DNA of 64,000 nucleotides. Source: Sphingomonas bisphenolicum. Its GTDB lineage: Bacteria; Pseudomonadota; Alphaproteobacteria; Sphingomonadales; Sphingomonadaceae. How positions within the stretch are numbered: position 1 is the stretch's first letter; every line of letters begins with the position of its first letter. The stretch lies in NCBI RefSeq assembly GCF_024349785.1, contig NZ_AP018817.1, positions 2,883,501 to 2,947,500 of the forward strand, written 5' to 3'. This document shows positions 1 to 23,290 of this stretch, piece by piece. A program made the position numbers and the translations under genes. The notes below the pieces were generated by a model that made no database searches, was not told the origin of the DNA, and saw nothing but the letters and a program-made list of their open reading frames with translations.

Positions 1-850
1 ACGCCTGCGCCATCACGCGGGCATAGTCCCGCTCATCGCCATCACGGCTCAGGGTCGAAATCGTTACGCTGCTTGCACGCTCGCTCATTCTGGAAAGCGC
101 CGCCGCCACGATCGAAGAATCCAACCCTCCTGATAATGTGAGGATGGGGGCCCGCGAGGTAGATGCCCAGGATGCAACGCAATGATCGACTGTACGGCGC
201 AGCCGCTCGGCAACTTCCTGGCTGTCCCAGAAAAGCGGCTCGGAAACAAAATCCCAAGGGTTCCAGAACTGCCGCGCCAGTGCGTCCCCCTCGCCCAGTT
301 GTACCGCGGTACCCGGAAGCAATTCTGCCACGCCGTCAAATGCCGTCCTGGCCTGTGGCAGGTCCTTGACGGCCAGATAGCGTGGCATCTCCGCCCAATT
401 AATCGACGGTCGGACCAGACCTGCTTCGACCAGAAGCATGATGTCTGACGAGATTGCCCACCCTCCTGGCAGCATCGTGAAATAGCACGGCAGCGCGCCC
501 CCCGGAGAGCGCGCGACGACCATCCTATTCTCAAGCGCCAGCACGGCAACATAGCCGCCCCAATAGCGCTCACCCAAAATCGCGATTGGATCACCTTGGC
601 TCATATCATCGGGAAAGAGCCTGTCGCTCGGCAAGATCCGCGCGGCGGGACCATGGCGCGGGAACACCGGGCCGATCACCACGCCTCGGTCGGCCGGGAG
701 CGTGAGCGATTGCGCGGCACAGGCGGTTAAAAGCGCGCTGCTTTTTCCAAGCAGAACGCTTTGGAACCCGGTGGTCGCGAGAAATTCGGGAGAGAGACGC
801 TCGAGCGGCGCACCGCTGTGATCAATGATTGCGAGGTAGCGTTCGAGCAT
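1..850 (-). CDS. Lasso peptide macrolactam synthetase (C protein), partial at the left edge
   Basis: This is an asparagine-synthetase-B homologue. In lasso clusters such proteins adenylate the side-chain carboxylate of an Asp or Glu in the core and close the macrolactam ring with the N-terminal amine. The ATP pyrophosphatase loop SGGLDSS is at residues 240-246 (bases 113-133), and the glutaminase-like N-terminal half contains GERYWGGYVAV. Asn synthetases begin Met-Cys; here the start is MLERYLA, so the glutaminase Cys is absent, as is usual in lasso cyclases. The ATG lies one base after the stop of the upstream B gene, so the two are translationally coupled. About 283 residues are visible and the C-terminal half is outside the window. 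The family call is firm; the lasso role rests on its neighbours. Confidence 0.9.
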   Translation of the reverse strand, partial: MLERYLAIIDHSGAPLERLSPEFLATTGFQSVLLGKSSALLTACAAQSLTLPADRGVVIGPVFPRHGPAARILPSDRLFPDDMSQGDPIAILGERYWGGYVAVLALENRMVVARSPGGALPCYFTMLPGGWAISSDIMLLVEAGLVRPSINWAEMPRYLAVKDLPQARTAFDGVAELLPGTAVQLGEGDALARQFWNPWDFVSEPLFWDSQEVAERLRRTVDHCVASWASTSRAPILTLSGGLDSSIVAAALSRMSERASSVTISTLSRDGDERDYARVMAQA

Positions 851-851
851 C

Positions 852-1511
852 TCAGATCGCCAGGATCGGCTCAAACGCCGAAATGTTCTCGAGGCGGTCG
901 TTCAAGACCGTATCACCTGTCTGCACCCAACAATGGGCGGAAAAGGGCGATGCGCTGACCCCCAGGACCAGCTTGGCGGGCAACCGGGCCGACAAAGCCA
1001 TGTCCATGAAGGCGATCGAATTGGTCAAACAGTGGTTATTGCGCGGACGCAGCGGCGCCGAGGCCGCAAAGGCGCCCACAATTGGTCCCCATTGGGCCAA
1101 ATCGGAGTAATCCCCACTGGCGGCCCCAAGTCTGTGCGAACGATCGGCAATTCCAGATATGATACTGTCAAAGCGAAGGAACCGCAGGCTCAGCATCGCC
1201 TTGAACTGGGCAAGAATGAACAACAACGTCCTGCTATTCAGGACCTGACTGCACTCAGCCAAGAACTCCCGGCCGGCTGGCTCGATCAAAGCCTGCTGGC
1301 TAAATGGCTCCCCCTCACCTGCGCTCACGAGAATATGGCCGCGCAGCAAGGGCTCGATACCGTCACCATTTTCCTTGTCTCCCAGATATCTCTGGAAAGC
1401 TGCATCCCATTCAGGGCGGAGGCCGAAATAGCGATCAGCCGCAACGTCCAGAAAGATCGTTTTTCCGCCTGTGATGCAGAAGGCCAGCCCGTCCCTCACC
1501 TTGTACCGCAT
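852..1511 (-). CDS. Lasso peptide biosynthesis B protein (RRE fused to leader peptidase)
   Basis: The predicted protein has 219 residues. The first ~80 resemble a PqqD-type RiPP recognition element (MRYKVRDGLAFCI onward) that binds the leader peptide. The C-terminal part is a transglutaminase-like cysteine peptidase that cuts leader from core. Its likely catalytic Cys is in RNNHCLTNS and its His in FSAHCWVQTGD. Proteobacterial clusters commonly carry this fused B form, whereas actinobacteria and firmicutes split it into B1 and B2. An upstream ATG exists at 1535, but AAGGAGG nine bases before the ATG at 1511 favours the shorter start. The gene sits between the precursor and the cyclase. Confidence 0.9.
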   Translation of the reverse strand: MRYKVRDGLAFCITGGKTIFLDVAADRYFGLRPEWDAAFQRYLGDKENGDGIEPLLRGHILVSAGEGEPFSQQALIEPAGREFLAECSQVLNSRTLLFILAQFKAMLSLRFLRFDSIISGIADRSHRLGAASGDYSDLAQWGPIVGAFAASAPLRPRNNHCLTNSIAFMDMALSARLPAKLVLGVSASPFSAHCWVQTGDTVLNDRLENISAFEPILAI

Positions 1512-1540
1512 GGTCAGCCCCTCCTTCGAAGACATGACTA

Positions 1541-1570
1541 AGGCGCGCGCCCCCGAAAGGACGCGCGCCT
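1541..1570 (-). promoter_or_regulatory. Hairpin between lasso precursor and B gene
   Basis: AGGCGCGCG (1541-1549) and CGCGCGCCT (1562-1570) are perfect 9-bp complements separated by 12 bases. The hairpin lies just after the precursor stop and before the B ribosome-binding site, with no T-run following. Hairpins here in proteobacterial lasso operons are thought to raise precursor output over the enzymes by partial termination or mRNA stabilisation. That role is inferred here. Confidence 0.6.
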
Positions 1571-1576
1571 CATCGA

Positions 1577-1708
1577 TCAGTCGTCAGCGATCCCCATCTG
1601 GTTCAGCTGACCACCGGTGAGGTCAAGGACGCCACGGATGGCGCCCTGGGTTTCGACGGAAGCGGCACCCAGATCGACGATATCTTCGTCATGTTCGATA
1701 TTGGACAT
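1577..1708 (-). CDS. Lasso peptide precursor (A protein), 43 aa
   Basis: This is a 21-residue acidic leader, MSNIEHDEDIVDLGAASVETQ, followed by a 22-residue core at 1580-1645. The leader has the Thr at the penultimate position that lasso leaders require. The core starts with Gly and has Asp at position 8, so the predicted ring is GAIRGVLD (Gly1-Asp8 isopeptide) and the tail LTGGQLNQMGIADD. In-frame ATGs also lie at 1714 and 1720. GGAG six bases upstream supports 1708. The acidic C-terminus recalls astexin-2/3-type lasso peptides from Caulobacterales. B and C genes follow directly, so the assignment is strong although the product is untested. Confidence 0.88.
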   Translation of the reverse strand: MSNIEHDEDIVDLGAASVETQGAIRGVLDLTGGQLNQMGIADD

Positions 1709-1769
1709 GTTCATCTCCATCACTGCGCCGCAGGAATTTGCGGCAACGCTGATGGTATGAAAGGACAGG

Positions 1770-1814
1770 CATATATCCGACCATATATGCTCTCATTTTG
1801 GGAGCATATATGCT
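1770..1814. promoter_or_regulatory. Candidate operator and promoter region of the lasso operon
   Basis: CATATATGCTC (1782-1792) and GAGCATATATG (1802-1812) form a perfect 11-bp inverted repeat with a 9-bp spacer, two helical turns centre to centre. A further half-site GCATATAT lies at 1770-1777. The centre, CTCTCATTTTGGGAG (1790-1804), is repeated with two changes at 3030-3044 in front of the regulator operon. The site lies about 75-125 bases upstream of the precursor start and just downstream of the GntR gene, so GntR or XRE binding is likely. No -35/-10 pair was assigned. Confidence 0.6.
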
Positions 1815-1887: not shown

Positions 1888-2511
1888 TTACGTCATTCGT
1901 GTCGCCGCTAAAGAAATTTGGTCAGCGCGTAACAAACGTCGGCGGTGATACTGCCACATCGCGACCCGCGTTGCGTTTCTGTTTCCCGAACGGGTTACAT
2001 TCCATAGCGTCGCGAGTTCCTCACCTTGCCTTCCGATAGGTCCTTCGTTCAACCGGAGGATAGCGAGTCGCTCGCCCGCCTGTACGATCGCATCTAGATG
2101 TTCGGGATTAGGCGAGCAGGACGCCATTAGCGAAAAAAATTCCGCAGTGGCATAGGCCAAGGCCAGGCCGTGCGCCGACCTATTGACGACGAAACCGGGC
2201 GGCGAACCCAATTCTTCCAATCGAACCATCACCTTCACGATCGTCCGGACAAGGTCGGCATGGTAGCTGTAGAGATGGTAAACGTTACGCTTGGTTATTT
2301 CGGGCAAAGCAAACCCACCGCCGCCCTGCGTTTCAACGAGACGCTCGCCCACCAGTCGGTTAAGCGCGTCGCGCACAGGGGATGTGCTCGTCCCAAATTC
2401 GTCGGCGAGTGACTGGACCGTCAACGGTAAGCCGGGCGTGAATTTTCCGGCCATGATCAGCTTTTTGATCTCGCGGTGGATGCGATCAGCGGTGAAAGCC
2501 TCGGGCGACAT
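1888..2511 (-). CDS. GntR-family transcriptional regulator
   Basis: The protein has 207 residues. The N-terminal winged helix-turn-helix (residues ~8-75) has the GntR signature: ...IKKLIMAGKFTPG, then LADEFGTSTSPVRDALNRL and ERLVE. The C-terminal ~130 residues are a helical effector domain of the FadR/FCD sort, more diverged than usual, with no clear metal-binding His set. The gene lies between an XRE regulator and the lasso precursor on the same strand and starts eight bases after the XRE stop. It probably controls the lasso operon and its own transcription. The ligand is unknown. Confidence 0.85.
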   Translation of the reverse strand: MSPEAFTADRIHREIKKLIMAGKFTPGLPLTVQSLADEFGTSTSPVRDALNRLVGERLVETQGGGGFALPEITKRNVYHLYSYHADLVRTIVKVMVRLEELGSPPGFVVNRSAHGLALAYATAEFFSLMASCSPNPEHLDAIVQAGERLAILRLNEGPIGRQGEELATLWNVTRSGNRNATRVAMWQYHRRRLLRADQISLAATRMT

Positions 2512-2519
2512 GACCTGTC

Positions 2520-2939
2520 CTAACCTGCCGAGCCGGCACTGCCCGGCCCTTTGTGTCCATTACCGGGCTGAAGGAATGTCTTGAGGCTGAGATTAGAGAT
2601 GAAATCCACGCATAGCGTTTCCAGCTTTTGCATGTCATCGAGAAAGAAGTGGCGCGGGAAGTGCATGTTATGCTCCAGAAACAGCATTGGAATGATGAGG
2701 TGCGCTGAAGAGAGCCCAAGGGCATGAGCGCATGCGATATGATCATCGACCCGGGCCTTCGGGTTGCCCGACTCGATTTCACGAAGCCACCGCACGCCGA
2801 TCCCGACATCGGCGGCGAGTTGCTTTTGCGTAATGCGATGGCGTTTTCGCCGCTCTTCAATTCGGCGACCGGAGATCGACTTGACCTCGGCCAGTATCGA
2901 CGCCTCCTCTTCGAGGACGCCGCCTTGAGATGAGATCAC
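2520..2939 (-). CDS. XRE-family helix-turn-helix regulator
   Basis: The protein has 139 residues. A Cro/CI-type HTH covers residues ~20-80 (RRIEERRKRHRITQKQLAA, then GIGVRWLREIESGNPKA). A C-terminal helical tail has no recognisable effector domain. It is the first gene of a two-gene operon with the GntR regulator. A near-copy of the lasso operator centre lies about 90 bases upstream at 3030-3044. The DNA-binding fold is clear. Its role in lasso regulation is inferred from position. Confidence 0.8.
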   Translation of the reverse strand: MISSQGGVLEEEASILAEVKSISGRRIEERRKRHRITQKQLAADVGIGVRWLREIESGNPKARVDDHIACAHALGLSSAHLIIPMLFLEHNMHFPRHFFLDDMQKLETLCVDFISNLSLKTFLQPGNGHKGPGSAGSAG

Positions 2940-6220: not shown

Positions 6221-6646
6221 CTACCGGATCTGCAACGTAAATGCCGTCTCGATCCGTCGATATGCTCGGGCAATCTCACTATCTTCCGAAGCGGACATGA
6301 GCGCGATTGCAGTCGTATAGAGACGGGTAATCGATACGGCGGATCCGCTATCGCCCGACGCTGCCAGATGTTCGATCATTCTCGCAGCGGCGTGGGCCAG
6401 ATCGGGTGACGCGCCCACAAAATGCTCGATCCGCCCTGTCAGCCTGATCACGGCCGGGGCGGAAAGCTCATCGCAAAGCTCCGGACCGTCCAGCGCCTCG
6501 ATCAGCAGCATGGCGACGGTCAGAGTCGCCCCATAGGGGATGAAACGCCTCGCGATGCGCGCCAGCCGGGAATGGCATTCGAGAAACGCGTCAGTTCCCT
6601 CCTCCGATAGATGCAGCCGGTAGGTCCGCGACTTGGGTGTCGCCAT
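6221..6646 (-). CDS. Hypothetical helical protein, 141 aa
   Basis: GGGAGG six bases before the ATG at 6646 sets the start MATPKSRTYRLHLSEEGTDA. The protein is soluble and helical, with internal repeats of the RLARIARRF / RLTGRIEHF type, and no known motif. It is transcribed away from the conjugation operon, so the palindrome cluster at 6723-6779 lies in its upstream region as well. A regulatory role for transfer is possible but not shown. Confidence 0.6.
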   Translation of the reverse strand: MATPKSRTYRLHLSEEGTDAFLECHSRLARIARRFIPYGATLTVAMLLIEALDGPELCDELSAPAVIRLTGRIEHFVGASPDLAHAAARMIEHLAASGDSGSAVSITRLYTTAIALMSASEDSEIARAYRRIETAFTLQIR

Positions 6647-6779: not shown

Positions 6780-6933
6780 CCCTCCCCATTGCGGCGTGTG
6801 CCGCATTGGATGCATCGCTTGGAGCACCCGATCGGAGGTCGAGACGCCGCTCGAAAGAGAGCGAGCCGCCCCGGCCCAGAACGGACCGCGAAGCCAGGCC
6901 GCTCATGCGCCTGACAACAGAGAGATTTGTCCG

Positions 6934-7203
6934 ATGTCAGCATCACGACTGGCCATCATGGCCGGATTGCTCACACTCGCCCCCGCTCCGGGCTCTGCAC
7001 CTGCAGCCCGGAAGGTAGGCCCCATTCAGCCGCCGTCGGCTCCAAAGAAACTGGCGATTGCCCAGATCGGCGCCGATTTCTTCATCGGGCAACCACGCAC
7101 TGCAAAGCCCGCCGAAGAAACCGTCGGCGTCGGAAGCACGGTGAGGATCGATCAGCGCCTCCTCACAGGGAGCCCCCGTCCGAACGCAGGAAGCAATCAA
7201 TGA
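6934..7203 (+). CDS. Small exported protein at the head of the tra operon, 89 aa
   Basis: The protein has a signal-peptide-like start (MSASRLAIMAGLLTLAPAPG, then SAPAARK) and a short Pro/Lys-rich mature part with no known domain. It opens the plus-strand operon and its stop overlaps the next start by four bases (ATGA at 7200). That coupling suggests a role in envelope assembly of the conjugation apparatus. A second ATG at 6958 is possible. Confidence 0.6.
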   Translation: MSASRLAIMAGLLTLAPAPGSAPAARKVGPIQPPSAPKKLAIAQIGADFFIGQPRTAKPAEETVGVGSTVRIDQRLLTGSPRPNAGSNQ

Positions 7204-7976
7204 CCCGGCTTCTCAATCGAACGACCCTGACTGCCGCCTTTTTGATGCTTGGCAGCGCGGCACCTGCACTCAGCCAGGCGCCAGTCGAACCGGACCTTTC
7301 GCAGCTCGCGAGATCCGCTGAGGCCCAACTGCGCGAAAGCTTCGCCAACCTCCAGTTTGAGGGTTTCGCGCCCTCCCCCGTGCATGGCCCACTCTTCCAG
7401 GCCAGCGCCGGCGGCCGCATCCTTTATTACGCGCCGGAAAGCGACCATCTTCTGTTCGCGACCATCTACGACAAGAATGGCGTCAACCTGACGGCCCTGT
7501 CTCAGGATGCGGCGGCTCGAGCCAGGCTCAAGACCCTCGATCAGAGCCAAGCGCTCCTGATCGGACCACCCGGCGCACCGCTGGTCATCGAGTTCACCGA
7601 CCCCGACTGCCCCTATTGCCGCGCGCTCGATCGCTTCTGGGCCGCCAAGGCGGCCGAAGGCAAACCGGTGCGCCGCCAGATCTACTTCGTGTCCGGCATC
7701 CATCCAGAGGCGGCTTCAAAGGCCGAGCACATATTCTGCGCGAAGGACCGCGAAGCCGCGTTTCGCGCCACCTATGCCGGTGAGCCGCCAAAGCCCCTCA
7801 ACCAGTGCGCGGAAGGCGCGGCCCGTGTTCAGGCCCATGCGCAGGCGGTCAAGTCCATGGGCATATCGGGCACGCCGACCCTCATCCTAGACGGTCAGAT
7901 CATATCCGGTTTCAGCCAAGCCGAGATCGAAGCCTGGCTCGCCAAACAGCGGCCGTCAGCGAAGCCCCCGACCTGA
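7200..7976 (+). CDS. DsbC-like periplasmic thiol-disulfide isomerase
   Basis: 258 residues with a signal peptide (MTRLLNRTTLTAAFLMLGSA, cleavage near ALSQA). An N-terminal dimerisation-like region precedes a thioredoxin fold with CPYC at residues ~138-141 (TDPDCPYCRAL) and the cis-Pro motif SGTPTLIL near residue 223. DsbC proteins reshuffle wrong disulfides. In F-type systems a dedicated copy serves the cysteine-rich TraU, TraN and TraH. The coupling to the tra genes fits that role. Confidence 0.88.
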   Translation: MTRLLNRTTLTAAFLMLGSAAPALSQAPVEPDLSQLARSAEAQLRESFANLQFEGFAPSPVHGPLFQASAGGRILYYAPESDHLLFATIYDKNGVNLTALSQDAAARARLKTLDQSQALLIGPPGAPLVIEFTDPDCPYCRALDRFWAAKAAEGKPVRRQIYFVSGIHPEAASKAEHIFCAKDREAAFRATYAGEPPKPLNQCAEGAARVQAHAQAVKSMGISGTPTLILDGQIISGFSQAEIEAWLAKQRPSAKPPT

Positions 7977-8478: not shown

Positions 8479-8596
8479 AGACAGGCTCAACGGACCAGCG
8501 CGGGGGCCCAATCGCCCCGCGCCGGACGGAGAGCGAACCGCGCTCTTCGTAAAACCTCACATCTGTTCAGATGTGGGTGAAGCAAGGGAGAAGGGC

Positions 8597-8863
8597 GTGG
8601 ACGAGAGACTTCCACAATTTCTGCACAAGCCGGTCCAGATCCTCTGGTTCGACGCGCAGGAGTTCATCCTCGTGGTCTCCACCATCTTCGTCGCCGTCAT
8701 CGTCGGCGGGCTGGTGGGCTGGTCGCTCCTCGGCGTCCTTCTCCTTTTCATTCCCTGGAAGCGGACGAAGCCCCGCGGCTTCGTGCCCCATCTGGCCTGG
8801 CGCTGGGGTCTGCTGCGCCTCCCCCATTATCCCGGGCCGACCCAGACCCGCTTTTGCGAGTGA
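8597..8863 (+). CDS. traL: TraL pilus assembly protein
   Basis: 88 residues, close to F TraL (91). The start LPQFLHKPVQILWFD is the family signature, followed by a long hydrophobic segment (FILVVSTIFVAVIVGGLVGW and the LLGVLLLFI helix). GGGAGAAGG just upstream favours the GTG at 8597 over a GTG at 8573. TraL is a small inner-membrane protein at the base of the F-type pilus machine. Its stop lies seven bases before traE. Confidence 0.85.
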   Translation: MDERLPQFLHKPVQILWFDAQEFILVVSTIFVAVIVGGLVGWSLLGVLLLFIPWKRTKPRGFVPHLAWRWGLLRLPHYPGPTQTRFCE

Positions 8864-8870
8864 GATCTCC

Positions 8871-9506
8871 ATGTTTCGTCAGAAATCGCCCCAGGAGGCC
8901 GCCGACCCGCTGCTTGGCAAACCAGGAAGCTTTGGCATTCACCGCTATCTCCAGGGATCATCCAACCTGTTCGAGGAGAACAGGCTGCTCAAATTCTCGA
9001 TTGTCGGCCTGTTCGGTATCACCGCCGTGCTGGGGATGGCGCTCTACTCGACGTCCCAGAACCAGCGCACGATCGTCATTCCCTTCGGCGCCAGCGGTGA
9101 TCTCTATGTGACCGGTGGCAAGCCTTCTTCGGCCTATCTGCGCGCCATGACGCGAAACATCGTCGCGCTGTCTGGTACATATTCTGCGCTCTCTGCAGAC
9201 CGGCAGTTCCAGGAGCTGCTCAGCATCGTCCACCCGACCGCCTATAATGGTCTGCGGGATAGCCTGAATGGCGTGCTCGATGAGCTCGCCAACAATTCCA
9301 CGCTATCGATCGCCACCTATATCCGGCCCGATCAGCCTGTCACCTGGACCGATCGCCAGATCCTCGTGCCCGTCGAGAAGATACGCGTCATCGGCGGCGT
9401 CATCCGCAAATTCCGGGGCAATCTGCGCATCCGATACATGATCGATGCCGGGCGCTTCTGGATCCTGTCCCTCACCGAGGAGAAATTCGATGCCGAGCTT
9501 CGGTAA
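8871..9506 (+). CDS. traE: TraE pilus assembly protein
   Basis: 211 residues, related to VirB8-like TraE (188 in F). A cytoplasmic N-terminus precedes one transmembrane helix (LLKFSIVGLFGITAVLGMAL, ~residues 40-60). A periplasmic domain ends FWILSLTEEKFDAEL. Characteristic segments include YLRAMTRNIVALSGTYS and KIRVIGGVIRKF. It acts in the inner-membrane assembly of the F pilus. The last 17 bases overlap traK, whose ribosome-binding site GAGGAG lies inside traE. Confidence 0.88.
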   Translation: MFRQKSPQEAADPLLGKPGSFGIHRYLQGSSNLFEENRLLKFSIVGLFGITAVLGMALYSTSQNQRTIVIPFGASGDLYVTGGKPSSAYLRAMTRNIVALSGTYSALSADRQFQELLSIVHPTAYNGLRDSLNGVLDELANNSTLSIATYIRPDQPVTWTDRQILVPVEKIRVIGGVIRKFRGNLRIRYMIDAGRFWILSLTEEKFDAELR

Positions 9507-10269
9507 CCGAGCGCGCGCGTCTCGCGCTGCCCTAACCCTTCTGCCTCTCATCGCCATGGCCTCGCCGGGACACGCGCAATCGATCCAGGCATTGCCCGAT
9601 CAGACCAGCACGATCCGGCTCTCGAACCGGGACGTCAATCATCTCGTCTGTCAGGGCGGCGAGATCGAGGATGTCAAATTCTCCGCCGAGAAGGGTCTTG
9701 CGGTCGAGAAGGGCGGCGGCGACGCCTGGGTCAAATTCCTCGTCCGCGAAAGCGACGATGGCGGCCAGATCACCCGCAGCTATGTGACGACGCCGTCCGA
9801 GTTCTTCGTCACCTGCAACGGCGCGATCTACCCGCTCTACGCCGAGCCATCCGAAATCCCCGCGCAGACGATCACGCTGGTGCCCGGCGCCCGGCAGCGC
9901 GCCCGTGCCAATGAGGATCTGCTCGCCCCGCTCGCCGAGGAAGATCGTGCGGTCTCGATCACCCTGTCCCTTTTGCAGGATCGGGTGCCGGCGAGCTTCA
10001 CCGAGGTGGCAACCGCCAGCCGGCAAATCACCCTCCCCGCCGCACCCGCGCTGCGCATCACCGAACGCCGCCGCGTCACCATTGAGGGCGCAGGCCTCAA
10101 CGCATCGGAATATCGGGTCGAAGCCACAAGCGACATGGAAGTCGACGAGCGCCTCTTCCTCGATGCGGCGCTCGGCGCCCGGATCTTCAGCGCAACGCTT
10201 GATCGGCTCTCGCTTCGTACCGGGGAGACCGCCCGGCTCATCATTCTGCGCCGGGGAGACGGGCTATGA
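9490..10269 (+). CDS. traK: TraK outer-membrane core protein (VirB9-like)
   Basis: 259 residues with a signal peptide ending near GHAQS. The N-terminal region (SNRDVNHLVCQGGEIEDVKF) and the basic C-terminal part match F-type TraK secretins. These form the outer-membrane core complex with TraV and TraB. The start at 9490 has GAGGAG nine bases upstream. The stop overlaps traB in ATGA. Confidence 0.85.
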   Translation: MPSFGNRARASRAALTLLPLIAMASPGHAQSIQALPDQTSTIRLSNRDVNHLVCQGGEIEDVKFSAEKGLAVEKGGGDAWVKFLVRESDDGGQITRSYVTTPSEFFVTCNGAIYPLYAEPSEIPAQTITLVPGARQRARANEDLLAPLAEEDRAVSITLSLLQDRVPASFTEVATASRQITLPAAPALRITERRRVTIEGAGLNASEYRVEATSDMEVDERLFLDAALGARIFSATLDRLSLRTGETARLIILRRGDGL

Positions 10270-11615
10270 GCGATGAGCGAAGGAATATCCCCCAAGGTCC
10301 AGACGAAACCAGTTCGCCCGCGCAAAGTAGCGGCGCCAGGGGCCGTTCACGGCCGACCCGGCCATCCTCGGCAACGACCGAAAGGAACAACAGCGTCCTC
10401 CAGCTGCGCGGCCCGGCCCTTCTCGATCTGAAGGCACGTTGGGCGACGCTCAGCCCACAGCAGCAATTACGCGCACGCCAGGCCGCGATCGGCGTGCTGG
10501 TCGCCCTGTTCGGCTATGGTCTTTATTCCGCCTCGCACAGCGCGGAGGACACTTCGCCTCAGGCGCCGGCGGCATCTAAGCTCGACATGGGGGCGGGCCT
10601 TCGCGGCGACAGCCTTGAAACGAAGGTGCGCGGCGACCTCAAGAAGATCCTCGATGGGCAGAACCTGCTCGGCGACCGAGTCACGGCGATTGAGGAGGGC
10701 CGGATCGGAAGCGCCGGTCCAGCATCGAGCGAAGCAGCAGTCGGCGACCTCCCCAATGCCATGCCGGGCGATATCCCGGCCTTTCCGCCCAGCCCGACAC
10801 CAAGCGAACTCGAACGTGCCGACGGCAGCCTGCCAGCACCGCCCATGCCGAGCGCGCCGGCTGCTCCGCCCGCGCCGCCGGTCGAACGCCAAGTGGGCGC
10901 GATCGGCGCCGCGACGAGCGCAGTCGTCGCGGAAGGATCGGCTGCTTCAAATGGCGCTAAAAAAAAGACCAGGACAATCTATTTGCCGCCTGGTTTCATG
11001 AAGGCGCGGCTGCTGACCGGGATCGACGCGCTCGCCAGCCGGGACGCGACGAGCAACCCGGAACCGCTGATCGCCCGCGTTCAGGCGCCCGCCGTGCTGC
11101 CCAATGATGTGAAGGCCAACCTCGCTGGTTGTTTTGTCATCGGCAACGCCACGGGGAGCCTTGCCAAGGAGCGCGTCGAGGTCCAGCTCATCTCGCTCTC
11201 CTGCGTCGATTTTGACGAGCGCTCGGTCATTGACCAGCCGATCAAGGGTTTCTTTGTCGATACTGATGGCAAGAAGGGGCTGTCGGGCAAAGTCGTTACC
11301 CGCGCCGGCGCTGCGCTCGCCCGCAGCTTTATCGCCGGCACGATCGCCGGGGTCAGCCAGAGCGTCGAGACCACCTTCGGCAACACCTCGACCTCGGCGC
11401 TCGGCACCGTCCGGTCCCTGGACGCGGGCGATGCGCTCAAGACCGGTGTCGCAGGCGGCCTCTCCAAATCCTCCGACAAGCTCACCGATTTCTACCTCGA
11501 TCTGGCGCGTCAGGCTGGGCCGATCGTCGAGGTCGGCGCTGCCAAGGACGTGGTGGTCGTGATCCAGGAGGGCCTGGCTCTGGAAATCAAACCCACCACT
11601 ACAACCAAATTCTGA
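10266..11615 (+). CDS. traB: TraB core complex protein (VirB10-like)
   Basis: 449 residues. A cytoplasmic Ser/Pro-rich N-terminus leads to one transmembrane helix (AAIGVLVALFGYGLYSA, ~residues 76-92). A Pro-rich periplasmic linker (GDIPAFPPSPTPS and APAAPPAPPVE) spans the envelope, and a VirB10-type beta domain follows (KARLLTGIDAL..., GCFVIGNATGSLAKERVEVQ). TraB couples inner-membrane energy to the outer-membrane channel. Length is close to F TraB (475). Confidence 0.88.
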   Translation: MSDERRNIPQGPDETSSPAQSSGARGRSRPTRPSSATTERNNSVLQLRGPALLDLKARWATLSPQQQLRARQAAIGVLVALFGYGLYSASHSAEDTSPQAPAASKLDMGAGLRGDSLETKVRGDLKKILDGQNLLGDRVTAIEEGRIGSAGPASSEAAVGDLPNAMPGDIPAFPPSPTPSELERADGSLPAPPMPSAPAAPPAPPVERQVGAIGAATSAVVAEGSAASNGAKKKTRTIYLPPGFMKARLLTGIDALASRDATSNPEPLIARVQAPAVLPNDVKANLAGCFVIGNATGSLAKERVEVQLISLSCVDFDERSVIDQPIKGFFVDTDGKKGLSGKVVTRAGAALARSFIAGTIAGVSQSVETTFGNTSTSALGTVRSLDAGDALKTGVAGGLSKSSDKLTDFYLDLARQAGPIVEVGAAKDVVVVIQEGLALEIKPTTTTKF

Positions 11616-11664
11616 TGTCCGCCAAATTCTGATGCCCACTTGCCACCTTCAGGGAGAGTATTCC

Positions 11665-12285
11665 ATGCCAAGCCAGCACTCTTGCGCGACCGCACGCCTC
11701 GCCTGCCCTACCCTTTTTCTCCTGCTCGGCGCCTTGTCCGGCTGCACCACGCTTGGCTCGGCCATGTCGCCCTATCCTGAGAAGTTCAGCTGCAAGAACA
11801 GCGATCACGGCCAGTGCATCCATCCCGAGAAGGCCTATGCCGACGCCGTGGCTGGCCGGGCATCAAAATCCGATCCCAAGGTCACGAACAGCAGCAAGGT
11901 ATCCGGAAGTTCCGGGAACACCGACAAGCGGAGAACCGGCCGCACTTCCACTGCAGATGGCTATGTCGGCTACCGCAGCAGCATCTATCGCGAACTTCAG
12001 GGCCTGGTCGAGGCGCCGGTCACACCGATGCTCCGGCCCGGACGCACGATCCGCACGCTGATCCTGCCTTATGCCGATCGCGATCGGCCCGATCGCCTCT
12101 ACATGCCGCGCTACGTCTATTCGATCCTCGACAAGCCGCAGTGGGTGGTCGGCGATTATCTCGTCAATCCGACCGAGGCAGCCGCACGCGTGCCGATCCT
12201 TGAACAGACCAAGGCCAAGCCCACGCTACCCGATAGCGATATCCCGGCGCCGCCACAGGATCAGGCCCAGGAGCAGGATCAATGA
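11665..12285 (+). CDS. traV: TraV outer-membrane lipoprotein
   Basis: 206 residues. A signal peptide ends in the lipobox LSGC (TLFLLLGALSGCTTLGSAMS), followed by the family segment YPEKFSCKNSDHGQCIHPEKAY with paired cysteines. The C-terminal half (YRELQGLVEAPVTPMLRPG, then IRTLILPYAD) matches TraV. The lipoprotein anchors the TraK ring. GGGAGAG before the ATG at 11665 supports this start over 11632. Its stop overlaps traC by four bases. Confidence 0.87.
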   Translation: MPSQHSCATARLACPTLFLLLGALSGCTTLGSAMSPYPEKFSCKNSDHGQCIHPEKAYADAVAGRASKSDPKVTNSSKVSGSSGNTDKRRTGRTSTADGYVGYRSSIYRELQGLVEAPVTPMLRPGRTIRTLILPYADRDRPDRLYMPRYVYSILDKPQWVVGDYLVNPTEAAARVPILEQTKAKPTLPDSDIPAPPQDQAQEQDQ

Positions 12286-14810
12286 GGGGGCTTGGAACGC
12301 GCCATGGCGGCGGCATGACCATCAAGCGGCTGCGGCAAAGCGTCTCGCGCGACGCCTATTCTGACTTCCTCCCCATGGTGAGCTGGGTCGAGGAAGAGGA
12401 AGCCTTCCTCACGATCGACGATGGCTGTGGTCAGGCATGGGAGCTGGTGCCGTCGGCCTATCTCTTCGCCCATGTCCATCAGGCGCTGCTTGGCCTTCTC
12501 AACATCCAGTTCGGCATGGGCACCGTGGTCCAGCTCCACTGCTTTGCCGATCCGCTGATCGATCAGGCGCTCGACGCCTATCTCGACCTTAAATCCCGGC
12601 TCGATCCGCTCGTCCAGGCATCGGCCAGGCGCACGGCGCAATATCTGCGCGACGGCACCGAAGGACTTTCCGCCCTTAACGGCATTCCCATTCGCAATTT
12701 CCGCGTGCTGCTCGCGATCAAGTCGAGGAAACCGCTGGGCGCGGACCTGCGCCGTCAGATCGAGGAGCAGCTCTCCAAACTCGGCATTGTTCGCATGGCC
12801 CCCGAAGCGCTGGTGAGCTTCTATCGCCGGATCTTCAACGGCGCCTTCGATCCCGCGCCCGGCGTCTTCGCCAGTGGGACCGCTGACAATCCCGCGCGCC
12901 CGGTCCGCAAGCAGATCATCGATGCGGGCCCGGACCTGCTGTTCGACGGCCCGGAGCTTTACTTCGGCAACCAGGTCGCCCGCTGCCTGACGCCAAAGTC
13001 GCCCGCGCGCCGGGTGACCGCGGAGCGCTGCAATCGGCTTTTGGGTGGCATGCGCGGCGCGGCGGAGGATAGCGACCAGATTGGTGGCCCCTTCCTCTAC
13101 ACGCTCAACATCCTGTTCGATCATTCGGCCTTCGAAATCCACAAGCGCGCGCAGATCCTTTCCGCGCAAAAGGCCGCCGGCAGCTTTGCCGTCGAGGTCG
13201 GAAAGCAGATCGAGGAGATTGGTTGGGTGCTGGATGAAGCGGGCAACAGCCGCTTCGTCACCGTCATTCCCACCGTCTGGGTGTTCGGCCGCGACAGCGC
13301 CCAGGCCCGCGAAATGGCCGCTCGCGCCAAGCGCCTTTGGGAGAGCGAACCCCTCCCCTGGATGATGCAGGAGGAGAGCTATCTCAATCCCATCCTGCTA
13401 CCGATGAGCCTTCCCTTCGGCTTTTACCCTGAGCGCCGGACGCTGCGGATGCTGGAGCGCGATCTTCCGATGCCGGCCAAGGCGGCGGCGCTGCTGGCAC
13501 CGGTCCAGACGGACTTTCGTGGCGGCGGGCGCCCTGCCCTTCTCTATGTCGGGCGCAAGGGCCAGCTCATCACGCTCGATCTCTTCGACCCGCGCATCAA
13601 CAATTATAATTTCATCGTGTCGGCCGAGAGCGGCGCGGGCAAGAGCTTCCTCCTCAACAATCTCTGCCTGCAATATTATGCCCAAGGCGCGCTCATCCGT
13701 ATCATCGATATCGGCGGTAGCTACCGGAAACTCTGCACCCTCTGCTCAGGCCGCTATATCGACATTGGCGAGGAAGCGCTGGTCCTCAACCCCTTCGATA
13801 TGGGCTTTGCGCTCGATGGCGACGACCGCCAGTCGGCCATCTCCATGGCGGTCGCGATCGTCGCGGAAATGGCCAATGCCGCGACCCGCAAGGGCGTCAC
13901 GACGTCAGAATGGAACCTGCTCAAATCCGCCGTCCAATGGACGATCGACAGCGGGCGGGCGGAAGCGGGCATCGACGCGGTCCGGGACTGGCTTGGCGCC
14001 TATCCCGCCGGTGCCAGCCATGACCTAGACAAGGTCGACCATCTCGTCCCCGTTGCGCGTGAACTCGCCTTCAACCTGCGCGATTTCGGCAGTGCGGGGG
14101 CCTATGGCCATTTCTTCAATGGGCCCTCGACCTTCGACATCTCCGCCGACGAATTTGTCGTGCTCGAACTCGAACGTTTGAAGGCCATGCCGGACCTCTT
14201 CAACGTCGTCGTCATGGTGGTCGTGAATGCCGTGAGCCAGGAACTCTACCTCTCCGCCCGCGACCGACCGCGATTTGTCCTCTGCGATGAAGCCGCCCAG
14301 TTCATGACCCGGACCGATGGTCAGGATCTCTCCCGCCTCGCCGAAGTGTTCGGCCAGGGCTACAGGCGCGCGCGCAAATATCAGGGGAGTTTCGGCGTCG
14401 TCCTCCAGTCGATGAACGACCTGCTGCTGTTCGGCGGCACGGGCCAGGTGATCCTCGAAAATGCCGCGACCCGCTTCCTGCTCCAGGGCTCGACCTATGA
14501 ACGCGCGGTCGAGAACAAGATCCTGGATTATTCAGGCTTCGTCCTCGATCTCCTGAAGTCGGTCCGGAACAACAAGCCGCATTATTCCGAGGTCTTCATC
14601 GACTCCCCGCTCGGGCTCGGCATTGCCCGCCTCGTCGTCGATCCCTTCTCCTACTGGATCAACACGAGCGCTCCCCAAGAGGTAGCCGCCTTCGAAGCGC
14701 GTCTGCGCGCCGGCCTCTCGCCGCTTGAAGCGGTCTGCGATCTCGCCGGCGTCGATCCTGCGGAATTGCTCAGCTCGCAAAGATCCCACCCGTCGCAGGA
14801 GCAGTCATGA
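12282..14810 (+). CDS. traC: TraC type IV secretion ATPase (VirB4-like)
   Basis: 842 residues, near F TraC (875). The Walker A motif SAESGAGKSFLLNN is near residue 450 and the Walker B RFVLCDEAAQFM near residue 663. VirB4-type segments GQGYRRARKYQGSFGVVLQS and a C-terminal FSYWINTSAP (the usual WxxTSxP element) are present. It powers pilus extension and retraction at the inner membrane. AGGAG lies eight bases before the ATG at 12282, which couples to the traV stop; the ATG at 12315 is less likely. Confidence 0.93.
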   Translation: MRGLGTRHGGGMTIKRLRQSVSRDAYSDFLPMVSWVEEEEAFLTIDDGCGQAWELVPSAYLFAHVHQALLGLLNIQFGMGTVVQLHCFADPLIDQALDAYLDLKSRLDPLVQASARRTAQYLRDGTEGLSALNGIPIRNFRVLLAIKSRKPLGADLRRQIEEQLSKLGIVRMAPEALVSFYRRIFNGAFDPAPGVFASGTADNPARPVRKQIIDAGPDLLFDGPELYFGNQVARCLTPKSPARRVTAERCNRLLGGMRGAAEDSDQIGGPFLYTLNILFDHSAFEIHKRAQILSAQKAAGSFAVEVGKQIEEIGWVLDEAGNSRFVTVIPTVWVFGRDSAQAREMAARAKRLWESEPLPWMMQEESYLNPILLPMSLPFGFYPERRTLRMLERDLPMPAKAAALLAPVQTDFRGGGRPALLYVGRKGQLITLDLFDPRINNYNFIVSAESGAGKSFLLNNLCLQYYAQGALIRIIDIGGSYRKLCTLCSGRYIDIGEEALVLNPFDMGFALDGDDRQSAISMAVAIVAEMANAATRKGVTTSEWNLLKSAVQWTIDSGRAEAGIDAVRDWLGAYPAGASHDLDKVDHLVPVARELAFNLRDFGSAGAYGHFFNGPSTFDISADEFVVLELERLKAMPDLFNVVVMVVVNAVSQELYLSARDRPRFVLCDEAAQFMTRTDGQDLSRLAEVFGQGYRRARKYQGSFGVVLQSMNDLLLFGGTGQVILENAATRFLLQGSTYERAVENKILDYSGFVLDLLKSVRNNKPHYSEVFIDSPLGLGIARLVVDPFSYWINTSAPQEVAAFEARLRAGLSPLEAVCDLAGVDPAELLSSQRSHPSQEQS

Positions 14811-15390: not shown

Positions 15391-16009
15391 AATCCGCTTC
15401 CCGGACCGAGCGCGCCACGCGCTTCTCGGTGCGCTGATGCTGGGCCTCGCCAGCCAGCCGGCACAGGGCGCGACCTCGACGATTGGCCGCACCTGGCCGA
15501 TCGCTGAGCCCGACGCCATGAGCGAAATCGAGGCACGGGTCGCCAATGCGCCTGACATGGCCGCGAAGTTCGGCCCGCGCGCCAACTGGTCGGCGCTCAA
15601 GGCCGCGTCGCTGGGGCCAGCTCCAGCCGATCGGACGCGGAGCATCATTCCCTTCTACACGGTCGATGAGGAGATCCGCCTGACTGACGGCCGCGTCCTC
15701 TATCCAAGGGGCTTCACCTTCAATCCGCTGGACTATGTGTCACTCCCCCAGCGCCTCGTCATTGTTCATCCGCGCGATCTTAGCTGGGCGCTCAAAGCAG
15801 CGCGCTTCACCGATTTCATCCTACTGACCGCTGGCGATGCGCTCGAACTCTCCGAACGCACCGGCCGCCCGCTCTTTATCCTGGAGGAGCGCGTGAAGGA
15901 GAGGCTCGGCCTCACCGTCGCGCCGGTCATCGTCGCGCAGGAAGGGAATAAGCTCGTCCTGCGTGAATATGCGCCGGAGCGTCCCGCGCATCGGAGCGCC
16001 TGGCCATGA
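15380..16009 (+). CDS. traW: TraW pilus assembly protein
   Basis: 209 residues, as in F (210). A signal peptide (ARHALLGALMLGLASQPAQG) is followed by the TraW segments IGRTWPIAEPDAMSEIEARV, PFYTVDEEIRLTDGRVLYP and GFTFNPLDYV. TraW acts in the periplasm with TrbC and TraU during pilus assembly. The stop overlaps the traU start. Confidence 0.9.
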   Translation: MSAEIRFPDRARHALLGALMLGLASQPAQGATSTIGRTWPIAEPDAMSEIEARVANAPDMAAKFGPRANWSALKAASLGPAPADRTRSIIPFYTVDEEIRLTDGRVLYPRGFTFNPLDYVSLPQRLVIVHPRDLSWALKAARFTDFILLTAGDALELSERTGRPLFILEERVKERLGLTVAPVIVAQEGNKLVLREYAPERPAHRSAWP

Positions 16010-17019
16010 ACCGCAAGACCCTCATCCGCGCCGCCGCCTTATCGCTCGCGGTTGCGCTCGGCTCTGCCAGCGCGCCGGCGCAAGCGTCCAAATGCGAGGC
16101 CGGAACCATCTTCAATCCGCTCACCAAGGTGCGCTGGACCTGCATTTTCCCAATCACCATCGGCGGCGTGCGGGTCGGGAGCTTCGATAAACTGGACAAG
16201 GAGCTCGACGCTCAGTCCGCGTCCAAGCCGCTATGCGCCTGTCGCAAAGGCTCCACGTTTTGGTTCGGCGTGAAGGTGAGCTTCTGGTCACCCAACCGCA
16301 TGATCGATGTGGTGACTGAGCCCGGCTGCATGATGGCGCTGGGCGCTGATCTCTTGCCGACTGGCGGCAAGCTCCAGGGGAGCCAGTCGTCCATCGCCGA
16401 TGGCACCAACAGCCAGAAAATGTTCGCGCAGATACATTATTATATCTCGCCGGTCTGGAAGATGCTCGACATGTTCACCGACCTGCCGTGCATCGAGGAT
16501 GACGGGTTCGACGTCGCCATGATCACCGAGTTGCTGCCGACCTGGCAGTCGGGAACGCTGGGCGCGATCATCCAGCCCGAGGGCATTCTCTTCGGCAATC
16601 CCGCCGCGGGCCTTGCCTGCATGGCGGACAGTGCAGCGGCAGCTGCCGGCAAGGTGCTCGATCCGCTCTTCTGGTGCATGGGCAGCTGGGGCGCCACCTA
16701 CCCGATCGCGGGCGACATCCATTTTGGCGACAGCGTCGAGGCCTGGGCAGGACTTGCTGCGCGCGGGACCTTCATGATGGGACGCCTTGGCGCGCTCACC
16801 ATCAGCTCGGCCGACGGCTGCTCGTTCAAGGCCCAGCCCGTCTGGACCAAGAGCCGCTACAAGCTCCAGATCATGGAGCCGGTCAAAGGCGGCAAGTGTG
16901 TCAATATCGGGCGTCCGGGCGCCCTCTGGTCGAGCGGCAAACATGCGCCGGGCAAGGACAATGCCCAGTTCATGTCCTTTGAAAAAGTGATCTGCTGCGC
17001 GGGAGTGTCCACCCCGTGA
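16006..17019 (+). CDS. traU: TraU mating-pair stabilisation/pilus assembly protein
   Basis: 337 residues (330 in F). A signal peptide ends near PAQAS, followed by KCEAGTIFNPLTKVRWTCIF, CACRKGSTFWFGVKVSFWSP and MIDVVTEPGCMMALG, all diagnostic. About ten cysteines need disulfide formation, explaining the operon's Dsb-type genes. TraU is a periplasmic protein for DNA transfer and pair formation. Confidence 0.93.
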   Translation: MNRKTLIRAAALSLAVALGSASAPAQASKCEAGTIFNPLTKVRWTCIFPITIGGVRVGSFDKLDKELDAQSASKPLCACRKGSTFWFGVKVSFWSPNRMIDVVTEPGCMMALGADLLPTGGKLQGSQSSIADGTNSQKMFAQIHYYISPVWKMLDMFTDLPCIEDDGFDVAMITELLPTWQSGTLGAIIQPEGILFGNPAAGLACMADSAAAAAGKVLDPLFWCMGSWGATYPIAGDIHFGDSVEAWAGLAARGTFMMGRLGALTISSADGCSFKAQPVWTKSRYKLQIMEPVKGGKCVNIGRPGALWSSGKHAPGKDNAQFMSFEKVICCAGVSTP

Positions 17020-17379: not shown

Positions 17380-19311
17380 ATGACGAGGACCATCCTCATC
17401 ATCCTCATGGGCAGCGTAGCGCTCGCGCCGCAAGGCAGCCAAGCGCAAGATATGGAGGCACGCGCCCGCACGGCGGCGGCTGCTTCGCGAACGAAGTCGG
17501 GCGACAGTGACGCGATCATCAGCAATTACGTCAATCCGGGCCTGGCCGGCGAGACAATCAGCACCGTCGACGACAGCCGCACCTTCGCCACCAATCTGGC
17601 TTGCCAGCGGAGCGCGACGATGCTCGAGCTGCTGGTCCAACCCGGCGCGACCGGCGACATCACGCATTTGAGCATAGCGCGCGACAGCAATCTCGACGGC
17701 AGCTTCGATCAAAATCTGACCCTTCCCGTCCCGGTCTCGGGCATCTGCGCGAACGGCATCGTCTCCTGCGATGCTGGAAGTTGGAACAACTGCACCCCCT
17801 TCCAATGGGATGTAGCGTCGTCCGGCAGCCTCAAGCTCAGCCAAGTGCCGCTGCCCGACCTTGCCGCCTGCTACTGTATCAATGCGAGTTGCGGCAGCAA
17901 CCTGGTGCTCGGCAACCTCAATTCGGTCCTCAAGGATCTTGGCGGCGGCATCATCGGTGCGCTCACCACGGCCGATCCCCGGATCGGGGTGGCGCAGGCA
18001 AGCATTGAAGGGCCTGTCATCCGTTATGTCGGCGCCCAGACGACGGCCTGTTCAGCGTCCCCGTCGCTATCTTCCACCAGCTATCGTGCCGATCCAACCG
18101 CGATCAGCGGGGACGCCAGTGCGAGCGCGCAGGCAAGCAGCGTGTTTCAAGCGCTGGCCGGTTCTGCGTCGGCCACCGGCAAGGCCGAGGTTACGCGCAG
18201 TTGCTCGATCGATCGGGAGATCAGCGTCAAACCCTGGGACTATGACGACATATTGGGCGTTGCCGGAGCGGTGACCTCCGTCACCGCCTGCGGCACCGGT
18301 TGCCGCCGCTATCAGATCCGCGGTTCCGGCACCTGCGGCAGCGTCCCGCCCATTCATACAGCCACCTTCGATCCGATCGCGCCGGCACGCATCGTCTCGG
18401 CCCGGATCGTGGAAATGGGCGCGGACGACTGGGTCCAGGCACGGGTCAATGGCCAGATTGTCGGCTATGCCGGAAAGCGCCCCTGGACGGGCGAGGCCCT
18501 GCCCTCTGGTGACTGCCGGATCAGCGGCGATCCCTATTATAATCGCACCGCGATCGACATCACGCCCCAGCTGCGCGCCGGTGCCATGACGGTCGGCGCC
18601 CGCGTGCGGGCCGGCGGCGATGGTAATTGGGGCTATGTCACGGTCGAGGTTCAGGTCGACACGGCCTGCGAGGTGTCGGAACGGCTGGTGGATCTCTGCG
18701 CTGGCTATGCTCAGGACGCGGCGTGCAGGCTGGACAGCGAGAGCGACGATGGCGTCACGACCTTTTCCAATGGCGTGAATACGGGCCTTAAACCCTTGGC
18801 CAAGACCCGATTGTTCGGCACGGGCAATTGCACGTTCCAGTATAGCCGGGACTTTTTCGAGCGGGATCGTCGCTATAAATGCCTGATTGATAGCGGTGAG
18901 CTCAGCGCGCCCGATCTGTCGCGCAGCGCCTATATCATCGACCATTCGACCGAGACCCTGCTCGCTGATCGCACCCTGTCGAGCGACGGGACGATTTCGA
19001 CCTCCACCCGTGCCTTTACCCTGCCCGATCGCGTGACGGTCCCGGCCTGCGAGCCGATCTGCAAGACCCGCGCGCCCAAGGCCAATAGCGACGTTGCGAT
19101 CTCCGGTGTGGTTGGGGCTAGCCAAAATGATCCGGCGGGCTGGAACAGCTTCTATCATAGCTGCACCGCGGACAATGTCTGTCCCATGGGTGAAGGCGAG
19201 GAACTAGTCACCGCCTGCGGCTGCCTTGATGATTTTCCTGAAGCCGCCGTCATGATGCAGACCGTGCGCCTCGCTGGCTCCGACCTTGCCTGCACTGCGG
19301 GGACGCCATGA
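17380..19311 (+). CDS. traN: TraN-like mating-pair stabilisation protein, N-terminal/large part
   Basis: 643 residues with a signal peptide (TILIILMGSVALAPQGSQA). It is a cysteine-rich exported protein with Gly/Ser-rich stretches; TraN-type signatures include SCSIDREISVKPW, DDWVQARVNGQIVGYAGKRP and a C-terminal ACGCLDDFPEAAVMMQTVRL. TraN is an outer-membrane adhesin that recognises recipient cells. The usual TraN C-terminal region is not here but in the next gene, which starts in an ATGA overlap. Central segments are typical of the variable, recipient-binding part. Confidence 0.8.
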   Translation: MTRTILIILMGSVALAPQGSQAQDMEARARTAAAASRTKSGDSDAIISNYVNPGLAGETISTVDDSRTFATNLACQRSATMLELLVQPGATGDITHLSIARDSNLDGSFDQNLTLPVPVSGICANGIVSCDAGSWNNCTPFQWDVASSGSLKLSQVPLPDLAACYCINASCGSNLVLGNLNSVLKDLGGGIIGALTTADPRIGVAQASIEGPVIRYVGAQTTACSASPSLSSTSYRADPTAISGDASASAQASSVFQALAGSASATGKAEVTRSCSIDREISVKPWDYDDILGVAGAVTSVTACGTGCRRYQIRGSGTCGSVPPIHTATFDPIAPARIVSARIVEMGADDWVQARVNGQIVGYAGKRPWTGEALPSGDCRISGDPYYNRTAIDITPQLRAGAMTVGARVRAGGDGNWGYVTVEVQVDTACEVSERLVDLCAGYAQDAACRLDSESDDGVTTFSNGVNTGLKPLAKTRLFGTGNCTFQYSRDFFERDRRYKCLIDSGELSAPDLSRSAYIIDHSTETLLADRTLSSDGTISTSTRAFTLPDRVTVPACEPICKTRAPKANSDVAISGVVGASQNDPAGWNSFYHSCTADNVCPMGEGEELVTACGCLDDFPEAAVMMQTVRLAGSDLACTAGTP

Positions 19312-20396: not shown

Positions 20397-21231
20397 CAGC
20401 CATATGGCCCCGCTCATGCTTGCGCTCGCGCTTGTCAGCGCCGCGCCGGGGCAGGCACGGGAGACCCAACCGGCAGACGAAGGGACGTCCGCCATGGAGC
20501 GCCTTCGCGAAGCCAAGGCCAGCGTTACTTCAGCGGCGCACGCTGGGCCTGACAAGATCCCCATCCCCTCCCCGGCTCTCAAACGACGGGCCTTTGACGC
20601 CATGCGGAAACGGCGGGTCGATCCACGGATGGAGGCGCAGGCGCGAGCGGCGCAAATCCAGGCAGCCAATGCGCTCGCCGTAGAGCAACAGGCCATAAGT
20701 ACCCGGCTTCATCAAGCGTTGGGTTTGGCGCCACCCGATGGCGCTCCGACGCCGGCACACGCAGCTTCGAATACCCCTACCAAAGCCTGGGTGCCGCTGC
20801 TGTTCGCCTCCTCGTCCATGCCGATCGAAACGTTGCGCACCTACGCCCGGCAGCTCGAACGGGTCGGCGGAGTCATCGCCTTCCGCGGAGTGCCCGGTGG
20901 TCTCACCAAGATTGGTCCCATGGCCGAGCTCACTGCACGGATGCTGCGCGTCGATCCCGGCTGCGAAGGTCCGGCCTGCGCGATGCGGAACGTCCAGGTG
21001 GTGATCGATCCGATCCTCTTCCGCCAGCATAGCATAGCCCGCGTACCCGCCCTCGCCATGGTGCCCGGCGACCCCACCCAACCCTATTGCGAGCGGGAAG
21101 ACGAGACCGCGGGCCGCGCCGCCCATCTCGTCCTGGGCGATGCAGCGCTTTCGGGCTTGCTGGATGAATATGCCCGCCTCGGCGGCAAGGAGGAGGTGCG
21201 AGATGCTTCGGCTCGTCTGGCTGGCCGCTAA
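20368..21231 (+). CDS. trbC: TrbC-type pilus assembly protein
   Basis: 287 residues. The C-terminal half matches F-type TrbC: WVPLLFASSSMPIETLRTYA, FRGVPGG and VQVVIDPILFRQHSIARVPA. A hydrophobic segment after the first ten residues (MAPLMLALALVSAAPGQA) serves as signal. GGAGGAG lies seven bases before the ATG at 20368, inside the previous gene; an ATG at 20404 would begin directly at the signal. TrbC works with TraW in the periplasm. The protein is longer than F TrbC (212) because of a helical, charged N-terminal insert. Confidence 0.85.
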   Translation: MPICAPSIPDSHMAPLMLALALVSAAPGQARETQPADEGTSAMERLREAKASVTSAAHAGPDKIPIPSPALKRRAFDAMRKRRVDPRMEAQARAAQIQAANALAVEQQAISTRLHQALGLAPPDGAPTPAHAASNTPTKAWVPLLFASSSMPIETLRTYARQLERVGGVIAFRGVPGGLTKIGPMAELTARMLRVDPGCEGPACAMRNVQVVIDPILFRQHSIARVPALAMVPGDPTQPYCEREDETAGRAAHLVLGDAALSGLLDEYARLGGKEEVRDASARLAGR

Positions 21232-23240: not shown

Positions 23241-23290
23241 GCAATGGCGGGCCCAGTCAATCCCACCCCTTCACCCCATTGGAGTCCGCC

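Follow-up and report, generated by a model that had tools for sequence, protein, structure and literature searches.

Organization of the lasso peptide locus

The region analysed here, referred to as the window, is a stretch of 64,000 nucleotides (G000 C1:2883501-2947500), and a further stretch that reaches to the left of it, L002, was included. The genes of a lasso peptide cluster lie across the left border of the window (Table 1). The precursor gene A, the gene for B and the cyclase gene C are all adjacent on the minus strand, in agreement with a first-pass annotation of this DNA that had described them as contiguous. A longer ORF is readable for A from position 1723; the NCBIfam benenodin model begins at its Met6, and thus the shorter ORF is the likely gene. 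Its product passes the cut-offs of both the Pfam Subterisin (PF24178, 1.7e-14) and NCBIfam benenodin (NF033522, 5.5e-16) models and, as judged from these matches, is a member of the benenodin/subterisin family. No additional family precursor and no additional B-type protein were found in a search of the own genome (one of each in all), and thus there is no second cluster of this family.

The predicted core, GAIRGVLDLTGGQLNQMGIADD, comprises 22 aa behind a 21-aa leader. There is Thr at -2 and Gly at position 1, Asp8 is the sole acidic residue in positions 7-9, and the core lacks Cys. Recomputation gave a mass of 2195.1005 Da after loss of one water, which reproduces the value of 2195.10 Da calculated before. 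The core had also been described as apparently new. This holds insofar as the core string was absent from the PMC literature searched; on the other hand, an identical 43-aa precursor is present in public DNA of Sphingobium limneticum DSM 25076 (locus L033), in which the one differing residue lies upstream of Met6, and the 90%-identity cluster of the precursor protein contains 12 sequences on 37 contigs. A core search of 397 family genomes returned this genome only (genome G028, which also has the core, was evidently outside the sample). Two precursor variants were each seen on a single contig (P0003 and P0004), one minus three residues near the leader end and one with the core replaced past residue 8; they are either assembly errors or decaying copies.

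The proposed fusion in B is supported by an NF033537 match above its cut-off and by the predicted fold, in which the RRE occupies residues 9-74. Cys169 and His201 are invariant among 15 aligned B proteins, and a comparison of the B sequence with PDB chains gave no match. The cyclase has 605 aa in all, the whole gene being located at L002 12057-13874 with its remainder left of the window. It scores below the cut-offs of the lasso-specific NCBIfam cyclase models, and its matches in PDB are restricted to beta-lactam synthetase and a hydroxyamidotransferase.

An isopeptidase and a TonB receptor had been expected to the left of the window, and both are present in L002, together with FecR and an ECF sigma factor. 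The isopeptidase reached 703 bits with NF033523 (cut-off 400) and matched the AtxE2 structure 5txc at 1.7e-115; its gene overlaps the 3' end of C by 28 bases. The absence of an ABC transporter noted at first extends to the 17 L002 proteins scanned with Pfam, which represent the larger ORFs. The phased repeats upstream of A may be the operator or promoter, and AT-rich repeats akin to them were seen by eye ahead of many precursors among the 30 of the family that were inspected. Helically phased ATATAT/TTATAA repeats precede precursors both with and without GntR. No support was obtained for an operator that the tra genes would share with the lasso genes, as the half-site CGGATATA occurs only once more in window 1-28600, at 9318 inside traE.

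Table 1. Features of the lasso peptide locus and its surroundings, in window coordinates unless L002 is given
Feature	Position	Strand or orientation	Basis or remark
ECF sigma factor	L002 5782-6354	convergent with A-B-C	profile match
FecR	L002 6320-7384	convergent with A-B-C	profile match
TonB receptor (STN, plug, barrel)	L002 7469-10042	convergent with A-B-C	profile match
AtxE2-type isopeptidase (E)	L002 10042-12084	convergent with A-B-C	NF033523, 3.4e-211
Lasso cyclase C, 5' part	1-874	-	PF00733 (Asn_synthase) 5.2e-29, above cut-off
B, fused RRE and leader peptidase	852-1535	-	NF033537 3e-18, above cut-off
Lasso precursor A	1577-1708	-	43 aa from Met6; PF24178 and NF033522 matches, translation
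Stop codon of A	1577-1579	-	translation
Core of A	1580-1645	-	translation
Leader of A	1646-1708	-	translation
Phased ATATAT repeats upstream of A, candidate operator/promoter	1770-1814	-	23 and 12 bp apart, by eye
GntR regulator, member of the conserved shell	1888-2511	-	PF00392 1.1e-17; trees
HTH_31/HTH_3 regulator adjoining GntR	2520-2939	-	relatives in many fetched loci
DsbC-like disulfide isomerase, start of tra region	6927-7976	+	PF10411, PF13098
traE, traK, traB (TrbI), traV, traC	8571-14810	+	profile matches
traU	16006-17019	+	PF06834 4.5e-96
traN, S26 peptidase, traF, traH, traG	19308-28495	+	profile matches
Tyrosine-integrase-like protein beside tRNA gene	55724-57055	-	PF13356 1.5e-25, PF22022 1.9e-24
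tRNA-Met, possible attachment site	57217-57292	-	

GntR, the TonB receptor and FecR/sigma stand in the order published for isopeptidase clusters, whose architecture is near-constant according to passages of a review (PMC9266682). The clusters described in these passages (astexin-2/3, benenodin-1, sphingopyxin I and subterisin) likewise have GntR before A, B and C, an isopeptidase, a TonB receptor and a sigma/anti-sigma pair, with no ABC transporter seen there; the present locus differs from them in its core, and neither a recurrent position next to F-type transfer genes nor a mosaic of shell and cassette, both described below, is mentioned in these passages. The sphingocin cluster of Sphingomonas BPH, as presented in sections of PMC11006600, also shares a 22-aa core that ends in DD and follows a leader ending in -ETK (-ETQ here), the lack of a D gene and an adjacent isopeptidase and TonB receptor. 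However, its core is different, and E and TonB are called divergently transcribed in that text, whereas the 87 linked loci in our sample are convergent. The locus is almost certainly a complete isopeptidase-type class II lasso locus; as a cluster it is unremarkable, with the published isopeptidase-lasso layout and a core that is absent from the literature searched.

Distribution and proximity to a conjugation region

Family precursors were searched (E up to 0.001) in 94 genomes of the genus, which was taken as Sphingobium, and were found at 104 places in 53 of them; a lasso isopeptidase was present in 51 of the 94. An isopeptidase lay within 12 kb of 87 precursors, convergent in every one of the 87 cases, and 17 precursors were without it, so the association of the two genes is not due to chance.

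To the right of the lasso genes, an F-type conjugation region with F-type T4SS genes occupies 6.9-28.5 kb of the window, and a coupling protein is encoded at C1:2769728, 137 kb from traH. Many TraK relatives of the ORF at 9445-10269 carry a stop codon within the aligned segment, which none of the matches starting at query residue 26-35 does; judging from these alignments, translation of TraK probably begins about 27 codons downstream of the ORF start. The DNA between the tra genes and the integrase-like gene (28.6-55 kb) is cargo-like, with genes for a Mn catalase, a UDP-galactopyranose mutase, an HWE kinase, a ZIP transporter and a transposase. As to a possible integrative conjugative element, a search for flanking att direct repeats with a 21-mer of the 3' part of tRNA-Met gave one genome copy only. 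Two TIR-domain proteins, possibly defence genes, are encoded about 15-20 kb left of the window (L110 13411-14421 and 16521-17498).

With the TraK of the window as query, 93 matches were obtained in 56 of the 94 genomes. A TraK match lay within 20 kb of 58 of the 104 precursors, upstream and on the opposite strand (divergent) in all 58, and the distance was 4.1-5.0 kb in 54 of these (7.7 kb in the window). The other 46 precursors either had no TraK match on their contig (36) or had one from 29 kb to megabases off (10). In turn, 56 of the 93 TraK genes had a precursor within 20 kb and 37 had none; the TraK-linked loci are related, and these counts do not represent independent events. A syntenic relative of the GntR of the window was present in 42 of 56 fetched genus loci, and TraK linkage was seen in 33 of these 42 loci versus one of the 14 without it (Fisher p 3e-6), the nine syntenic-GntR loci without a near TraK being partly accounted for by contig ends.

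This TraK linkage replaces a linkage based on traH, whose figures rest on the traH matches listed. There, at least 41 of the 104 precursors had traH within 45 kb, upstream and divergent, and one more had it at 41.9 kb in another orientation. Among the matches listed for few-contig genomes, 10 of 27 chromosomal-type traH genes were without an isopeptidase within 45 kb; the chance estimate for this comparison (0.9) is rough and assumes one 4.5-Mb replicon per genome. For at least 14 of the 41 traH-linked precursors a relaxase was found within 200 kb among the relaxases listed, in all 14 cases on the side away from traH and on the strand of the precursor. One of the linked loci, L065, is on a contig of 1,247,975 bases (G044 C2). 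In addition, 15 named loci (L034-L048) were inspected: tra genes were present in three (S. terrigena, a Sphingopyxis MAG and Sphingobium AS12), and no tra gene was found in up to 10 kb upstream of the other 12 (eight Sphingomonas, two Novosphingobium, one Sphingobium and one Sphingomonadales MAG). Thus, the link to tra genes characterizes a single branch and does not extend to the whole family. That a lasso module recurs beside an F-type conjugation region in this genus can be stated with high confidence. Among the titles and abstracts listed in searches of the open-access literature, none joins lasso clusters with conjugative elements or with cassette exchange.

The DNA of G028 (taken as S. 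limneticum) is 99.8-100% identical to ours from -3972 to about 6.9 kb. Further right, identity is 89-97% to 8.4 kb, 100% at 8.4-11.9 kb and then 75-93%, and a chromosomal acc stretch of the same genome shows 86-90%. Such a near-identical tract compared with the chromosomal level points to a recent exchange of the tract between species. At window 6405-6413 the matches of G028 contigs C55 and C76 both break off, 127 bases from a contig end, an indication that a repeat is inserted there in G028. Isopeptidase relatives (E up to 1e-50) are present in 17 plasmid records and a precursor, 59% identical, in one, the Sphingobium sp. V4 record NZ_CP081002, which is conjugative by PLSDB prediction. A piece of the S. 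yanoikuyae plasmid record NZ_CP115457 (386470-387159) matches isopeptidase residues 21-258 only, 80% identical, and is probably a relic. A C-terminal isopeptidase fragment that adjoins a TraK fragment at G077 C1:714220-715324 is perhaps a relic of an element of this kind.

Probable exchange of a specificity cassette between loci

Comparison of the loci separates a shell, consisting of GntR, the leader, FecR, sigma and the N-terminal part of the TonB receptor, from a cassette, consisting of the core, B, C, the isopeptidase and the TonB barrel. Pairwise identities were calculated for the 52 of 69 loci that had all genes and the syntenic GntR (17 were dropped; 1326 pairs). In the 169 pairs in which at least one gene reaches 50% identity, identities of GntR, FecR and sigma intercorrelate at 0.80-0.92 and those of B, C, E and TonB at 0.89-0.97, whereas correlations across the two blocks are 0.62-0.71. 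L063 and L079 share 100% identity in sigma, 89% in GntR and 86% in FecR versus 34% in B, 39% in C and 40% in E; their DNA is 90% identical up to the precursor, then only two short pieces (80 and 104 bp) align, and identity is 93% again from inside the TonB gene over 8.4 kb. The same pattern was observed for L081/L102 and L087/L098, with two and four short pieces, respectively. The window resembles L067 in GntR, FecR and sigma (80, 70 and 81%) but less so in B, C and E (43, 51 and 51%), for which L067 and L064 reach 62, 64 and 68%.

Phylogenetic trees are in conflict in the same way. Those of GntR, sigma and FecR unite the window with L067 and reject L067 with the L064 group (p-AU 4e-5, 0.02 and 0.001), and those of C, E, B and TonB residues 291-857 reject the window with L067 (p-AU 4e-5, 6e-6, 9e-4 and 1e-39); these AU tests used LG+G4 without mixture, and the p values are post hoc, the clades having been picked after viewing the identity tables. 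For TonB 1-290 alone, the test failed to discriminate between the trees. The nearest shell partner and the nearest cassette partner differ in 32 of the 52 loci, some of them near-ties among close relatives. Out of 21 pairs with a conserved shell (sigma at least 80%, FecR at least 65%, GntR at least 70%), E is at most 56% identical in five and at least 75% in 16; most pairs that conserve the shell thus keep the cassette too. L069 combines leader DNA and a GntR (93%) of the L064 type with exactly the core of L057. L069 is no clean swap: it also departs from the L064 group in FecR (54%) and sigma (66%), its grouping with the L064 loci being rejected by sigma (p 0.03) and that with the L057 group by FecR (0.001).

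The borders of the exchanged part are recurrent. In L063/L079, L081/L102, L087/L098, L067/window and L064/L069, the most likely left break is offset from the leader/core junction by +5, -2, +9, +7 and +3 nt, respectively, with DNA identity dropping from 0.75-0.88 before it to 0.40-0.55 after it; in L087/L098, weak similarity continues through the core. The right break falls at TonB residue 278-308 (window numbering), past the plug (Pfam 133-246), in the first four of these pairs and in L039/L040, which is a weak pair, alignable in DNA nearly throughout and with a change-point gain of 10. For L064/L069, since FecR and sigma differ, either the break on the right has another position or several events took place. 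TonB residues 1-290 exceed the rest of the receptor in identity by a mean of 24.6 points in five pairs with the same shell and different cassettes, versus -0.6 in 17 control pairs, and the contrast thus goes beyond conservation of the plug.

It is very probable that a specificity cassette has been exchanged between loci while the regulators were kept. If there had been no exchange and B, C, E and the barrel merely evolved faster than the regulators, which fits the lesser constraint on core and enzymes in many peptide systems, the trees would not conflict both ways, since differences in rate cannot move branches. Rate-only divergence is rejected on the basis of the conflicting trees, and with the exact L057 core behind an L064-type leader and GntR and the abrupt changes in L063/L079 DNA (90%, then pieces of 80 and 104 bp, then 93%) standing against it too, this explanation is very improbable. 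The exchanged part appears to be whatever must fit the peptide, namely the core, two enzymes, the isopeptidase and the receptor barrel, and the kept part, consisting of the promoter, GntR, the leader, FecR, sigma and the end of the receptor that serves signalling, appears to be generic. It is hardly possible for GntR to read the core sequence, because it is 89-93% identical beside different cores (L063/L079, L087/L098 and L064/L069).

Possible role of the locus

B would cut the leader off behind Thr-2/Gln-1 and C would link Gly1 to the side chain of Asp8, which would close a ring of 8 residues around a threaded tail of 14. The mature peptide would exit the cell, re-enter through its own TonB receptor, be opened by its own isopeptidase and report via the STN domain, FecR and the ECF sigma factor. 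In our opinion, the observations are best explained (at a probability of roughly 0.6) by an isopeptidase-type locus that encodes a private peptide, secreted and then taken up again, that exchanges its specificity cassette and that is carried and spread by conjugative DNA. As the exchanged part is the one that fits the peptide and the kept part is generic, a private re-imported peptide best explains the pattern, even though private re-import with signalling, taken by itself, has somewhat less than an even chance of being correct. The most likely purpose would be private self-recognition, in which uptake and opening of the peptide are restricted to carriers of the same cassette. A more elaborate version, in which the lassos are identity signals of the conjugative DNA itself, is rather improbable: the peptides would be secreted, read via TonB, FecR and sigma and erased by the isopeptidase, the linked HTH and GntR regulators would couple this readout to the expression of the lasso and tra genes, allowing the element to sense whether neighbours already carry its own type, and types would switch by a core-to-barrel cassette swap at the two module borders.

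The locus may also be passive cargo at a stable place beside the tra genes, in which case the link would be uninformative on function. The 14 of 56 genus loci without the syntenic GntR, 13 of which have no near TraK, are in line with this, as are most of the named Sphingomonas and Novosphingobium loci, which have no tra gene near; however, all 58 linked precursors agree in side and strand, and 54 of them in the 4.1-5.0 kb spacing, across diverged elements, and we consider passive carriage a serious possibility that is nevertheless doubtful. A bacteriocin-like module, whose lasso harms importers without the isopeptidase while carriers are immune by linearising it, would benefit the element by favouring carriers. 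The recurrence of the clusters beside transfer genes and the travelling of E with the biosynthetic genes (C/E identity correlation 0.97, 169 pairs) would suit such a module, and competition would favour exchange of specificity, but known isopeptidase-type lassos are described as lacking antimicrobial activity, astexin-1 excepted, in passages of PMC9266682, which makes this role unlikely.

We judge it just as unlikely that the peptide is a siderophore-like scavenger that binds a metal or nutrient outside and is re-imported and opened to release it. The combination of FecI, FecR and a TonB receptor with an STN domain is indeed the layout of siderophore uptake. The pyoverdine system also uses a TonB receptor and sigma/anti-sigma regulation, and its locus is not known to be linked to conjugation genes. 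As reported in parts of PMC11366639, the pyoverdine locus of Pseudomonas, which also concerns a secreted peptide, likewise diversifies by replacement, with its biosynthetic set wholly replaced by horizontal transfer, although the product is an NRPS siderophore there and a ribosomal peptide here. On the other hand, the core is without Cys or His, its acidic groups beyond the ring Asp8 are two C-terminal Asp only, and the genes of shell and cassette include none for assimilation.

If the preferred reading is true and a swappable specificity cassette travels with conjugation genes, its function would be directly testable: locus pairs that share their regulators but differ in the peptide amount to domain swaps made by nature, and a phenotype could be sought in mating assays. 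An insertion in a lasso B gene has been reported, in sections of PMC11006600, to abolish a phenanthrene phenotype, and this phenotype would be open to rereading if that locus also sits on mobile DNA. In addition, the position of the break at the leader/core border suggests that a foreign leader and promoter can serve a core accompanied by its own B, C and E, and such modularity of leader and core, if true, would be useful for engineering.
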